Shown: piece by piece, positions 27,617 through 32,214 of the stretch
Numbering within the stretch: position 1 is the stretch's first letter
Layout of the letters: the number at the start of each line of letters is the position of its first letter
NCBI RefSeq assembly: GCF_004792415.1
Contig: NZ_CP038853.1
Coordinates: 2,790,001 to 2,854,000, forward strand
Origin: Pantoea vagans
GTDB taxonomy: Bacteria > Pseudomonadota > Gammaproteobacteria > Enterobacterales > Enterobacteriaceae
Length of the DNA stretch: 64,000 nt
Direction of reading: 5' to 3'
Translations under genes and position numbers: made by a program
Notes under the pieces: generated by a model
Databases searched by the model: none
What the model was told of the DNA's origin: nothing
Seen by the model: the letters and a program-made list of their open reading frames with translations, nothing else

Positions 27617-28726
27617 CTACTCTTCGGGGTTGATCACCTGCTGGCGCGGACGGAAGACATGATCGTTGCCCTCCGCTGTTAACAACTCCCGTAACTTCTG
27701 GCCGCCATGTTCATCGGCCTGGGCGAACTGACGCTCCGCTTCGGTGACAGGCGTGGTCCAGAGCAAAGTAGGTCGATCGCCATCGCGCTTGGGCAGCTTG
27801 AACTGCGCCTGTTCGGTTGCCAGTTCATTCGCCAGCAGGAAGCTTTCAAAGCCGACCGGTGCCACTTCCGACGCCAGCGTGTGGCCCTCACCCAGCCAGG
27901 TGAGCCGCGCCCACGGCAGATGCACGAACTCCGCCAGCGCGCTCGCCATCTGCACCGCGTTGCCTTCGGTCATGATTTCACCGTCGACCGCCATGCCCAG
28001 TTCGATACGGCGATACTGCGGTGCCAGCTCATCGAACAGGTAATCGACCTGCGGCATGGGACGGATGCTCATGCCGAGCGTCAGGAAATACCAGACGCCC
28101 TGATGCCAGTGCTGCGAGATCGCCATCGGCGGCCAGCTGCCCTGATCGATTGCGTAATATTTCACTGACTCGCCAAAACGCGCCTGATAGCAGGCCATAA
28201 GATCCTGCTGGACCCTATCCCACTCGCTGCCGTCGTGCCATTCGCGCCAGAACTGACGCTGATGCTCCGCACGGGCATAGTAGTCGTTGGTCGATGCCGA
28301 GCCCAGCGGGGCCGTCAGCCGGTTCTTTTTGATGCAGCCCGCAGAGAAGCTCACCTGCTTCTCCTGATAAAGACTCCAGCCGGGGATCACCGCCAGCAGC
28401 TGGCCGTAATACCACAGCGCCGCGCCATCATCAGAAGGCTCCCACAGGACCTGCAGACCGGCCGGGTCCAGCGCGGGCTCCGCTTCCAGATTACGGCAAT
28501 ACTCGGCGCTGAGCAGCGGCGCGATGCCCTGCTCCATCGCCTCACGATCTTCCTGTGCCGGTGCGGGCAGCAGGTTACGAAGCCAGCAGCCGCGCACCGC
28601 ATACTGACTGCGGAACAGGTCGGTGGGCCAGATGTAAAAATAGGCGGTGCGCTCATCCTGTTCGACAATGGCGGTCAGGGTGCGCTGCTGATTGTGGACT
28701 TCAGCAATCAGGGATTTGTACGTCAT
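27617..28726 (-). CDS. Suppressor-of-fused-like domain protein
   Basis: This 369-residue soluble protein has no signal peptide. I start it at 28724-28726 (MTYKSLIAEV), behind GAGG. The C-terminal half (FGESVKYYAIDQGSWPPMAISQHWHQGVWYFLTLGMSIRPMPQ, about residues 180-225, and PWARLTWLGEGHTLAS) resembles the bacterial SUFU domain, named after the eukaryotic Hedgehog regulator. The N-terminal part (AYFYIWPTDLFRSQYAVRGCWLRNLLPAP) is a DUF2185-like or novel module that I do not recognise for certain. Bacterial SUFU proteins often occur as immunity proteins of polymorphic toxins; no toxin is adjacent here. The AT-rich island lies immediately upstream. Confidence 0.68.
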   Translation of the reverse strand: MTYKSLIAEVHNQQRTLTAIVEQDERTAYFYIWPTDLFRSQYAVRGCWLRNLLPAPAQEDREAMEQGIAPLLSAEYCRNLEAEPALDPAGLQVLWEPSDDGAALWYYGQLLAVIPGWSLYQEKQVSFSAGCIKKNRLTAPLGSASTNDYYARAEHQRQFWREWHDGSEWDRVQQDLMACYQARFGESVKYYAIDQGSWPPMAISQHWHQGVWYFLTLGMSIRPMPQVDYLFDELAPQYRRIELGMAVDGEIMTEGNAVQMASALAEFVHLPWARLTWLGEGHTLASEVAPVGFESFLLANELATEQAQFKLPKRDGDRPTLLWTTPVTEAERQFAQADEHGGQKLRELLTAEGNDHVFRPRQQVINPEE

Positions 28727-29434
28727 AGTGCCTCGACAAAGCCTGGAGGAATCCATTTTCCCCGAGAATAGAGCAGGATCCTGGCTGCCGCCATTTGAGA
28801 CAAGGGTAATAGTCTCAAAGTGTGGGGGGATGGGGAAGATGGTAAGATGCGTTAAAAAGAAAAATGTTAAAACTAATGTTTAGTAGCTTCAGTATGGAAG
28901 TTCTATACCCACTCCTCCATCATCCGGGTTAACAGTTCTTTAAACTTGAAAGAAATTTTTCTTTTTCAATTTTTCATAATGGCATTCACCTAGACTTGAG
29001 TTCAATATCAGCAGGATGCTGGAATGAGTTAGACTAGTTTTTGAAAGAACGTAAGCCTAATTTGAGTTAAAACGCGAAAAAGCCTCATTTTATAAGCGAA
29101 ATCCCCGTAGGTCTAAAAATAATTCTCGTAAATTTGATTTAAAATTTGAGCAAACTCCAATATTCTCATGATCCATAAAAAGATTTCTAGCGCTATTCAT
29201 AGCGCTAAAGCATCGACGCAAAAAACATTACTCATTGAATTGAATGGTTAAAAAACGCTTATGTTTTACTTTTGGAAACTATGAGAAACAAGAAAATTAA
29301 ATATCACTGCCCGCTTTTAGAAAAAAACTTGCTTGTTGAATGGTTGCTTGTTTATAGTGAGAAAAAATTACCTGCCCATAGTTTATTAAGCCTTTACCTA
29401 ATTTCAATTAAATTAATCACGAGACGGATGACAA
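28727..29434. other. AT-rich leader region of the ParA/RelA-like island
   Basis: About 700 bases without a convincing gene. From about 28,800 the composition turns sharply AT-rich and remains so to about 31,320. It contains an imperfect TTGAAAGAAA/TTCTTTTTCAA inverted repeat near 28,950, the perfect palindrome at 29188-29207 and a -10-like TATAGT at 29353-29358. A 61-codon frame at 29272-29457 overlaps the start of the ATPase gene and has no ribosome site or recognisable content. Directly repeated insertion ends were not found by eye. Confidence 0.6.
29188..29207. promoter_or_regulatory. perfect 20-bp palindrome upstream of the ParA-like gene
   Basis: Arms TAGCGCTAT and ATAGCGCTA face each other across TC, centred about 237 bases before the ParA-like ATG. 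It is the most GC-rich spot in an AT-rich leader. It could be an operator, a ParB/centromere-like site or a small hairpin; nothing here decides between these. Confidence 0.5.
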
Positions 29435-30541
29435 ATGAAGATAATATCAGTATTTAATAACAAAGGGGGCGTGGGTAAAACAACTTTAACTTATCACATT
29501 GCTCACTCGATAGCTGAAATGGGTTTTAAAGTTCTAATGATTGATGCCGATCCCCAATGTAACTTAACAATATACTCATTAAAACAAGACTTCATTCATG
29601 ACCTCTGGGCCGAAGAAGATACTTTTATAGATGAAGGATTTGAATATGCCTTCAATGATAAATCTCCTGAAGAATATTCAAAAATTATCTCTAAGCCGAG
29701 AAGCTTGCACTTTCTTCTAAAGCCTACGGAAGAAGGTACTGGAGATCATATTCAGCTCCCACCCCCAGCCCAACTGACAAAAAATTTAGACATAATACCT
29801 GGCAGATTGACATTACATCTCTATGAAGAAAAAGTTGCAGGACGATGGACCGATCTATACCGCGGTGATCCGTTAGCAATTAGGACCATCACGAAAATTA
29901 GAAATCTAGCTGAAGAATATACAAGAATTCATAATTATGATTATGTAATAATTGATACTTCTCCTAGTCTTGGATCCTTAAATAAAGTAATTATATCTAC
30001 AGTAGATGGTTTCTTTGTACCTGCTCTTCCTGATTTATTCAGCCTTTATGGAATAAAGAACATTGGGAAATCTTTAGCCTCATGGAAAGAAGAATTTGAT
30101 ACAATTTATAAGCTTATTTCAAATGAGAAGCGTCATGTTTTTCCGGAAAAATTCGTTCGCTTCTTGGGCTATACTATCTATAATGCAAAAAAGTACACAG
30201 GCACTGAAACCAAATGGAATTTAGCAAGAGCGCATCTCAATTATGCAGAAAAAATACCACAAACTATTCATGATAATATTAGTGCTTCTTTAAGAGACAA
30301 TATACCTGAAAAGTTATTAGAATTACCAATTGGAAGTACAGCCATTATGCATACGCATAATACCTTCCCATCTATGGCACAATACTATAACGTCCCAATG
30401 TGGTTAGTACCAGATCTGCAACATATTGAATCTGAACATGTTGATACATTACGTGGTGCACGTAAGAAATACATAGCAACGCAAAACGGATATCATAAAT
30501 TTACAGAAGAATTACTGGAAAGAATAAAATTATTAGGGTAA
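29435..30541 (+). CDS. ParA/MinD-family AAA-like ATPase, island gene 1
   Basis: This 368-residue protein begins with the ParA fold: the deviant Walker A KGGVGKTT (residues 10-17, both lysines present), LMIDADPQCN (Walker A', 34-43) and Walker B YVIIDTSPSLG (170-180). Nucleotide binding, dimerisation and DNA or partner interaction are therefore expected. It is longer than a chromosomal ParA of about 260 residues, with an inserted region at about 50-120 and an extra C-terminal 90 residues (ending FTEELLERIKLLG). There is no ParB gene beside it. Instead a RelA/SpoT-type synthetase gene starts 7 bases after the stop. The very AT-rich codons unlike its neighbours indicate horizontal transfer. I know no named system with this pair. 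Confidence 0.88.
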   Translation: MKIISVFNNKGGVGKTTLTYHIAHSIAEMGFKVLMIDADPQCNLTIYSLKQDFIHDLWAEEDTFIDEGFEYAFNDKSPEEYSKIISKPRSLHFLLKPTEEGTGDHIQLPPPAQLTKNLDIIPGRLTLHLYEEKVAGRWTDLYRGDPLAIRTITKIRNLAEEYTRIHNYDYVIIDTSPSLGSLNKVIISTVDGFFVPALPDLFSLYGIKNIGKSLASWKEEFDTIYKLISNEKRHVFPEKFVRFLGYTIYNAKKYTGTETKWNLARAHLNYAEKIPQTIHDNISASLRDNIPEKLLELPIGSTAIMHTHNTFPSMAQYYNVPMWLVPDLQHIESEHVDTLRGARKKYIATQNGYHKFTEELLERIKLLG

Positions 30542-30548
30542 TAACGAT

Positions 30549-31205
30549 ATGGATATTGATAAAATAATAAACATTTACTCTTCTGAAGAGCATACTTTTA
30601 ATATTTTCATGTCTACAGTAGTAAATATGTTCCAACTAGAACCCAGTCTCAATGAGTATGGGACACCTATAATACACACATTAAAAAGTCGGTTAAAAGA
30701 TAAAGATCACCTTCGAGAAAAAATATCTAGAAAAGAAGCTGACGACAATCCTATAACAGAAGAAAATCTCTTCGAGCGTATAACTGATCTTGCGGGTGTA
30801 AGAGTTTTACACCTTTATCAGGATCAATTTATAAATATCCATGAATTCATAAAAAGTCAAATTGAAAAAGGAGAGTGGTTTTATAGGGAACCTCCTGTTG
30901 CATATACATGGGATCCGGAATGTAGAACTTACTTCACTGGCCTAGGCCTTGAGTGTAAAGTAAAAGAATCATATTATACAAGCATCCATTACCTTATTAA
31001 ACCTAAAGAAAACTCGTTAATAACTTGTGAGATTCAAGTTAGAACTCTTTTTGAAGAAATATGGGGAGAAATTGATCACACAATAAATTATCCACATAAG
31101 ACTGAGAATATTTCTTGCAGGGAGCAACTAAGAGTACTTTCAAAGTTAGTTTCAACAGGAACTAGATTAGCTGACTCTATTTTTAGAACTCACAGAGCAG
31201 GATAG
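30549..31205 (+). CDS. stand-alone RelA/SpoT-type nucleotidyltransferase, island gene 2
   Basis: This 218-residue protein matches the (p)ppGpp synthetase domain only. It has LKSRLKDKDHLREKISRK (45-62, the ATP-binding basic helix), RITDLAGVRVL (77-87) with the metal-binding Asp80, YYTSIHYLI (142-150), and CEIQVRTLFEEIWGEIDHTINY (160-181) with catalytic-type Glu161 and His177. No HD hydrolase, TGS or ACT domain is present, so it could make an alarmone (pppGpp-like, or another pyrophosphorylated product, or modify tRNA as toxic SAS enzymes do) but not degrade it. Uncontrolled it should be toxic, so the ATPase partner may restrain or trigger it. AGGG before the ATG; a hairpin terminator follows. 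Confidence 0.85.
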   Translation: MDIDKIINIYSSEEHTFNIFMSTVVNMFQLEPSLNEYGTPIIHTLKSRLKDKDHLREKISRKEADDNPITEENLFERITDLAGVRVLHLYQDQFINIHEFIKSQIEKGEWFYREPPVAYTWDPECRTYFTGLGLECKVKESYYTSIHYLIKPKENSLITCEIQVRTLFEEIWGEIDHTINYPHKTENISCREQLRVLSKLVSTGTRLADSIFRTHRAG

Positions 31206-31207
31206 TG

Positions 31208-31240
31208 AAAAAACCATGAGCTAGCTGCTCATGGTTTTGC
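31208..31240 (+). terminator. terminator closing the ParA/RelA-like operon
   Basis: Perfect 12-bp stem AAAACCATGAGC / GCTCATGGTTTT with loop TAGCT, 4 bases after the stop codon. The arm itself ends in TTTT. The 100 bases from here to 31341 are AT-rich and hold no gene. Confidence 0.8.
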
Positions 31241-31341
31241 CCATATTCTATTAATAGGCTGTTGCTTTGATTAACATATTTACGTTCTCATAGACTTTCC
31301 AAAGCTAAAAAAATAGCATCAAACCGTTAGCCGCAGTACCC

Positions 31342-32214
31342 TTACCCCAGCCTCCCCATCCTCACCATTGCCCGATACCATGCCCCGCGCTGAATTGACC
31401 ACCTCAACCCCACCGCAATCGCATTAATCTTCCGGTCAATCATCGCCTGCTCAAAGCGGCCGATTTCACGGCCGGACATCGCCTGCGCCCACGCGGGCAT
31501 CAGCCCGAATCCCGACTTCAGCATGATTTTCATCACCGGTTTCGCCTGCCAGCTCGGAGCAGGGGCATTCATCAGCAATCGCGTCACTTCGGCGGTGCGT
31601 TCATCAAAGCGCAGCTCCGGACGCATCTGTTGCAGGTAATCCGCCACATCGGCAACGCTTTTCGGCACCTTCTCTGCACCCAGCGCTTCGGCAATCAGTG
31701 CCGCTTCCTGATAGTACTGATCCTGTTCCGCCCGGGTAAGCTGCGGGTTTTTGTAGCGCAGATGAGCGGCCAGAAAACGGCTGGTCTCCGCCACATGCAC
31801 CCAGGTGAGCAGATGCGGATCGCCGGCGGCATAAGGTTTGCCCGCGCTGTCGACGCCGCTGACTTTCAGATGAATGCGTTTCACCCGGTCAATCAGCGTC
31901 TGCACATCCTGTGAATTACCGTAGGTGGTCACGGCGATAAACTGACTGGTGCGGCGCAGGCGACCCATCATATCTTCGCGGAAATTGGAGTGATCCCAGA
32001 CGCCTGCCAGCGCTGCCGGATGCAGCATCTGCAACAGCAGCGCACTGATGCCGCCGCACATCATGGAGGTGAAGTCACCATGGACGCGCCAGATCACGCT
32101 GTCCGGGCCAAACAGGCCGGGATCGCCAGGCGGTTGAGAGAGGTCAAATTCATTCATCGACAGGCCGTTAAGGCGGAAGACCTGCTGCTGAATGCGGTCA
32201 CGCAGATTAATCAT
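31342..32214 (-). CDS. oxygenase MpaB family/DUF2236 protein
   Basis: This 290-residue protein has the DUF2236 pattern: WRVHGDFTSMMCGGISALLLQMLHPAALAGVWDHSNFREDMMGRLRRTSQFI (about residues 42-93), then DPHLLTWVHVAETSRFLAAH, with several conserved His and Arg that may bind haem or metal. The family includes latex-clearing-type and MpaB oxygenases, so an oxygenase role is a family inference. A signal peptide is not seen. It lies between the AT-rich island and bglX, on the same strand as bglX. Confidence 0.82.
   Translation of the reverse strand: MINLRDRIQQQVFRLNGLSMNEFDLSQPPGDPGLFGPDSVIWRVHGDFTSMMCGGISALLLQMLHPAALAGVWDHSNFREDMMGRLRRTSQFIAVTTYGNSQDVQTLIDRVKRIHLKVSGVDSAGKPYAAGDPHLLTWVHVAETSRFLAAHLRYKNPQLTRAEQDQYYQEAALIAEALGAEKVPKSVADVADYLQQMRPELRFDERTAEVTRLLMNAPAPSWQAKPVMKIMLKSGFGLMPAWAQAMSGREIGRFEQAMIDRKINAIAVGLRWSIQRGAWYRAMVRMGRLG

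Follow-up and report, generated by a model that had tools for sequence, protein, structure and literature searches.

A ParA-like ATPase and a RelA/SpoT-type synthetase in Pantoea vagans form a candidate mobile growth-arrest module

In a stretch of 64,000 nucleotides from Pantoea vagans (contig NZ_CP038853.1, positions 2,790,001 to 2,854,000 of the forward strand; hereafter the window), a gene for a ParA/Soj-like ATPase (gene 1) is followed directly by a gene for a stand-alone RelA/SpoT-type synthetase (gene 2), and the two sit together in an AT-rich insert. What does such a pairing of enzymes do for the DNA that carries it? The answer we favor, with somewhat more confidence than doubt, is that the genes form a mobile growth-arrest module composed of an ATPase switch and a synthetase effector, acting most likely against phages or other invading elements. 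What the data show directly is a conserved and close gene pair whose two products both keep their active-site residues, a patchy and mobile distribution, recurrent placement in a hotspot of P2-like phages, and the swapping of partners by the ATPase. A broader and more tentative proposal, which we rate as plausible while leaning against it for the present, is that ParA-like ATPases act as a common sensor or switch in an as yet undescribed immune family with several effectors. An alarmone synthetase would be the output in one version, with a SIR2 NADase-like enzyme, a HEPN RNase or a Schlafen-AlbA_2 protein in others; more than one version is placed in a single phage hotspot, and the window would hold the alarmone version.

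The pairing itself is widely conserved. A scan of genome contigs by short exact patterns, which favors close relatives, yielded 57 gene 2 loci (55 bacterial and 2 archaeal, distributed over nine named phyla, with three loci lacking a phylum assignment). Co-occurrence of gene 2 homologs with the ATPase had been set beforehand as the test that could sink the idea of a two-gene system, and an ATPase gene lies directly upstream on the same strand in 53 of the 57, some of these having one gene interrupted or cut at a contig end (e.g. L028, L034, L057 and L059; L numbers are our locus handles). The gap between the two genes in most relatives runs from -8 to +12 bases, -4 being frequent. The four exceptions comprise two loci at a contig edge (L024, L044), one fragment (L060) and one locus without an ATPase (L043); in the latter, at L043:6310-7734, the gene 2 relative is continuous with a stretch that looks methyltransferase-like by eye, either as a true fusion or as an effect of assembly. 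Two of the 53 carry a diverged ATPase that is 28-31% identical (L040, L053). Over 49 loci the protein distances of the two genes correlate (Mantel r 0.65, with 0 of 999 permutations as high), which lends limited support because shared descent alone yields some correlation. A three-gene version was also observed (L119:4678-7048, L120:4842-7128 and L157:3148-5405), in which a protein of 183-201 amino acids is encoded upstream of the ATPase and RelA/SpoT genes; the extra proteins of L119 and L120 returned no Pfam or PHROGs match.

Both proteins retain the residues expected of working enzymes. Gene 2 matches RelA_SpoT in Pfam (2.1e-17) and, because nothing else matched up to E 1, is taken to lack a hydrolase domain, in agreement with the initial annotation of the window. 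No variation is seen among 40 gene 2 sequences, the window's included, at R48, K50, K58, R61, K62, D80, R85, Y143, E161 or H177, so that the synthetase motifs recognized at the outset (Asp80, Glu161, His177 and a basic stretch) are all preserved. Judged by its sequence, gene 2 is a small alarmone synthetase, an assignment defined by PF04607 without a hydrolase domain and with the catalytic residues kept. It shares size, fold and catalytic residues with the small alarmone synthetases RelQ and RelP, but unlike these it scores far below the cut-off of the RelQ/YjbM equivalog NF053588 (42.6 bits against 320) and is paired with an ATPase. With CapRel (7ztb), a fused toxSAS defense protein, it has in common the RelA/SpoT-type pyrophosphokinase fold, the ATP-binding arginines and the G-loop tyrosine, and CapRel and the pair are both linked to prophages. 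By motif, R48 and R85 would equate with the ATP-coordinating R79 and R116 of CapRel and Y143 with its G-loop Y155, a residue whose change to alanine abolished the protection given by CapRel, as reported in PMC9712102. The C-terminal pseudo-zinc-finger antitoxin domain that is fused in CapRel is missing from the 218-residue gene 2 product, whose model shows one helix (residues 188-217) after the synthetase core before the chain ends. The organization of gene 2 also recalls the toxSAS-antitoxin pairs (FaRel2, PhRel and others), which are two-gene modules with a stand-alone synthetase domain. By definition toxSAS enzymes are toxic on expression and act by tRNA pyrophosphorylation or (pp)pApp synthesis, and RelQ and RelP make (p)ppGpp. 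The modeled fold of gene 2 lies nearest to RelQ/RelP, closer than to CapRel or FaRel2, a comparison that favors RelQ/RelP over toxSAS without deciding between them. Of the early suggestion that gene 2 encodes a growth-stopping nucleotide-producing or tRNA-modifying enzyme, the tRNA option is weakened by this same comparison.

Gene 1 belongs to the deviant Walker ATPases, with Pfam matches to AAA_31 (2e-30) and CbiA (2.8e-15). The KGGVGK motif and residues D37, D39 and D174 are invariant among 33 aligned ATPases, bearing out the intact ParA motifs that had been read from the window. Its best solved relative is DIP2308 (3pg5), an uncharacterized ParA-like protein matched by profile over nearly the whole length (E 3e-49). 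The extra insertions ascribed to the ATPase fit its length of 368 residues and the model of a Shewanella relative (L013), in which four helices (residues 51-100) come after the first nucleotide-binding segments and precede the next strand.

Beyond the loci found through gene 2, relatives of the ATPase keep other company. At 1e-40 the gene 1 profile matched 13 of 369 genomes of the class and 23 of 398 of the phylum, the window's own being counted in both, and 34 of 35 other ATPase places were read, L155 apparently being the same place as L054 of the 57-locus scan. Partner classes, set by BLAST to exemplars whose Pfam domains are SIR2_2, SLFN_AlbA_2 plus HATPase_c_4, HEPN_RiboL-PSP and RelA_SpoT (the Schlafen exemplar L164 matching HATPase_c_4 only), were RelA_SpoT at 7 loci, SIR2 at 4, HEPN at 5 and an upstream SLFN_AlbA_2 gene at 17, with no recognized partner at 1. 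The gene combining Schlafen-AlbA_2 with HATPase_c_4 is thus the largest partner class at this distance (L122-L125, L158-L161, L163-L170 and L172), and in 12 of the 17 cases it overlaps the downstream ATPase by 4 bases. A few loci are irregular: the RelA_SpoT gene of L121 lies about 1 kb away, the RelA_SpoT gene of L156 and the HEPN gene of L130 stand beside an interrupted ATPase, and the SLFN_AlbA_2 gene of L167 is in pieces. At L121:339-3818 the ATPase, a 304-residue protein without a Pfam match and a 424-residue RelA/SpoT protein follow in a row, which may represent an alternative layout of the module. Among the partners, the SIR2 proteins show similarity to the ThsA and LmuA models of known defense systems as well, the HEPN proteins match the RiboL-PSP family of Pfam, and on a Salmonella plasmid a methyltransferase gene stands with the ATPase gene, which overlaps a SIR2 gene by 4 bases. 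ATPase queries fetched 83 viral loci, and the 33 examined hold 8 RelA_SpoT partners (three on contigs from the gene 2 search), 7 SIR2 partners, 1 HEPN partner and 17 places with no recognized partner. At L225:8001-9719 an ATPase relative is followed at once by a 215-residue protein that looks nucleotide cyclase-like by eye.

The phylogeny of the ATPase was estimated by a quick method with SH-aLRT support only from 78 chosen rows, in which the RelA rows were thinned and near-copies and short or interrupted ATPases were omitted. SIR2-associated ATPases form one group (5 rows, support 100) and HEPN-associated ATPases another (4 rows, 96); the Schlafen group is weak (13), and RelA partners occur in two supported groups (36 rows, 100; 5 rows, 99). 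L121 clusters with plasmid ATPases that have no partner (99). Six partner labels, the outgroup included, need 8 changes on the tree against 33.5 in shuffles, a gap inflated by near-copies. The tree does not separate this ATPase lineage from partition ParAs, because the three outgroup ParAs are very long-branched and do not fall on one side.

The pair frequently resides in prophages. Among 5426 Escherichia coli genomes, nine gave a blastn match, seven to the pair and two to a plasmid ATPase alone. All seven carriers, NZ_CP053787.1 among them, have the pair in a P2-like prophage, adjacent to its portal gene, and in six the replication gene stands on the other side of the pair within the stretch read; the seventh (L177) has a SIR2 gene and a gene for an ATP-binding protein in that position. 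The same slot, between GPA and portal, holds an ATPase-SIR2 pair in L227. On five of six viral contigs found with gene 2 the pair adjoins a P2-type portal gene, L093 and L094 looking like copies of one phage that is also present in L004. On the sixth (L095) genes for a type II restriction enzyme, Vsr, a cytosine methylase and AriA/AriB-like proteins precede the pair, and the genes that follow it resemble phage tail genes by eye. Two of the 57 genome loci, from Edwardsiella (L004) and Pseudomonas (L008), share the portal neighborhood, and L207 is likewise portal-adjacent and P2-type. The gpA-gpQ region of P2-like phages is described as a hotspot of anti-phage systems in Rousset et al. 2022 (PMC9122126).

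In the window, the pair lies in a variable site of the genus. The open reading frames (ORFs) reported by the initial annotation are present on the same strand, separated by a 7-base spacer (Table 1), and constitute the sole two large plus-strand ORFs of the insert. The AT-rich island is equally clear: 1 kb windows within 29001-31000 have a GC content of 0.33-0.35, against 0.475 to 0.658 in 1 kb windows clear of the insert. Homology of the flanks to L076 and to the near-empty sites L088 and L089, which hold just 130-150 bases or so between the flanks, stops near 28822-28829 and restarts near 31339-31355. The hairpin terminator attributed to the pair is plausible; a 12-pair hairpin does follow gene 2 (-19.6 kcal/mol, z -5.8), and it is graded no higher because the output of a consensus terminator scan did not list it. 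A 10-pair inverted repeat at 29186-29209, in the AT-rich region upstream of gene 1, is possibly an operator or a minus-strand terminator. Within the genus, 60 genomes were compared, that of the window among them. The stretch, like the SUFU gene, was matched in 58 and both flanking genes in 55, and the full pair was found in the window's own genome only. Across 17 sites (L075-L091) the intergenic space between the flanking genes (28757-31341 in the window) contains cargo of about 0.14 to about 10 kb, and one relative (L087) carries an AbiU-like gene at the window's own insertion site. A second, diverged pair occurs elsewhere in the genome of a member of the same genus (L092, genome G052), its ATPase in two overlapping frames and apparently interrupted. 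At the level of the order, gene 2 was matched in 5 of 295 genomes at 1e-10; the other four matches are frames of 360-431 amino acids with 30-44% identity, and no ATPase was found in the roughly 3.5 kb read around each.

Table 1. Positions of the gene pair and surrounding features in the window
Feature	Position	Strand	Basis
Gene 1, ParA/Soj-like deviant Walker ATPase, 368 aa	29435..30541	+	Pfam, motif alignment, structural profile match
Spacer between gene 1 and gene 2, 7 bases	30542..30548	+	
Gene 2, stand-alone RelA/SpoT-type (small alarmone) synthetase, 218 aa	30549..31205	+	
12-pair hairpin 3' of gene 2, probable terminator	31210..31238	+	Folding energy
AT-rich insert, approximate extent, ~2.5 kb	28830..31338	.	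Flank homology to relatives
Left flank, SUFU-domain gene, outside module	27617..28756	-	Pfam
Right flank, MPAB_Lcp_cat gene, outside module	31342..32214	-	Pfam

How might such a module operate? In the scheme that we propose, several points are inferred: that the two proteins touch, what signal acts, which way control runs, what gene 2 makes, and whether its action is toxic and protective. The ATPase would be the control part, binding ATP probably as a sandwich dimer, and would keep the synthetase off, or turn it on, according to an infection signal, for example a protein or the DNA of the phage. Since binding to DNA and ATP is a property of ParA proteins, a switch of this type could register the condition of the nucleoid or of foreign DNA. 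The signal would alter the nucleotide-bound or DNA-bound state of the ATPase and so free or fire the synthetase, which would use ATP to pyrophosphorylate a nucleotide, with (p)ppGpp-type alarmones as the most likely product; these would halt growth, and the phage would not spread. Abortive infection is also the published model for CapRel (PMC9712102).

Other roles have been weighed against this one. The main rival, which overlaps with an anti-phage switch, is a plain toxin-antitoxin role: as a classical addiction module, the pair would stabilize mobile DNA through an ATPase antitoxin that silences the synthetase, and phage sensing would play no part. The tight coupling of the genes suits this explanation, as does the prediction by Anantharaman et al. 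2013 (PMC3710099) that a ParA/Soj ATPase counteracts a HEPN RNase as its antitoxin. It accounts less well for the recurrent placement in the P2 anti-phage hotspot, for the loci that lie beside other defense genes, and for the near-complete retention of nucleotide-binding residues throughout the partner classes (K15 is present in 72 of 75 rows, one of the other three being changed and two gapped), a feature that a passive antitoxin could dispense with; we consider it unlikely, yet a serious contender. Less likely still is a role in partition or prophage maintenance for which the ATPase recruited a stress-signaling enzyme, such that ParA aids segregation or lysogeny and the alarmone tunes host growth. 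Gene 1 does have the ParA fold and matches phrog_164, a ParA-like partition protein, at 1.9e-38, and putative partition systems occupy the same gpA-gpQ slot in about a fourth of P2-like phages (PMC9122126). However, gene 1 scores below the curated cut-offs for partition ParAs (69.5 against 180 and 64.6 against 348.45 for NF041546 and TIGR03453, respectively), and its neighbors by Pfam are RelA_SpoT, SUFU and MPAB_Lcp_cat rather than ParB, as the initial annotation had held, no ParB model having been run over the window as a whole. The insert, moreover, offers the pair itself as its two large plus-strand ORFs, and SIR2, HEPN and RelA/SpoT partners have in our judgment no known place in partition, which leaves this role improbable. 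More doubtful again is a housekeeping-type (p)ppGpp regulator gained by transfer for adaptation to nutrients or stress and controlled by ATP levels through the ATPase; the very patchy distribution (gene 1 is matched in 1 of 295 genomes of the order at 1e-25), the AT-rich insert and the carriage by prophages all speak against it.

Several observations count against the growth-arrest module that we favor. Instead of an effector, the Schlafen-AlbA_2 partner may be a regulatory protein. Some ATPases have no recognized partner; these occur on plasmids, among them L003:3563-4627 and L101:4001-5065 on a small and a mobilizable plasmid, and make up the 17 of 33 viral loci noted above, at least two of which lie at contig ends. 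Matches to PADLOC-DB 2.0.0 (2023) are weak for both genes, the best being 8.7e-6 over a 36-residue P-loop stretch for gene 1 and 0.0015 for gene 2, with no clear match to a model. In the same database, at 1e-10, 150 ORFs near the pair (of 168, with 18 left out from nine loci) matched 91 models, 150 ORFs more than 5.5 kb away at the same loci (of 199) matched 146, and 127 arbitrary ORFs (all those found, from 18 of 20 genome stretches) matched 10, a coarse contrast since it counts models rather than genes, one gene can match dozens, lists of matches are given to their first 25 entries, and the arbitrary stretches were drawn from Gammaproteobacteria only. By these matches the regions look defense-rich, the closest neighbors no more so than the rest; the defense role proposed at the outset draws support from the P2 hotspot, the L095 contig and partner swapping, and of the two comparisons of matches only that with arbitrary stretches speaks for it. 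The remaining cargo at the window's own site appears mostly ordinary (ORFs judged by eye; one of three scanned was AbiU-like). Finally, a two-protein model built by read-through, using 12 loci with both genes in frame and the single stop read as Gly, aligned with single-protein rows, reached a pTM of 0.70 and was confident per residue, and it comes without an interface score.

Parts of this picture are already in print, namely synthetase-based defense by CapRel and the ParA-HEPN dyads. In the latter, described by Anantharaman et al. 2013 (PMC3710099), a ParA/Soj-like ATPase likewise stands beside a predicted toxic enzyme (HEPN, MAE_18760) and is proposed as the control part; the resemblance is one of organization, the dyad effector being an RNase and the partner in the window a RelA/SpoT synthetase. 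No description of a ParA plus RelA/SpoT pair was found among the titles and abstract openings listed, a scope that leaves out preprints and most subscription papers, and the pair may be among the 169 P2-hotspot systems tabulated in the supplement of PMC9122126. Provisionally, then, the alarmone-synthetase version and the breadth of ATPase partners appear to be new.

ParA/MinD-type ATPases are known from DNA segregation and cell division. If the proposed role is correct, they would gain a further one as immune switches, and alarmone synthesis under a ParA-type switch would join the list of phage-defense outputs. Because E. coli prophages carry copies, the module can be tested directly in laboratory strains, and the versions with SIR2, HEPN and Schlafen partners would allow one to ask whether a single sensor serves several effectors.
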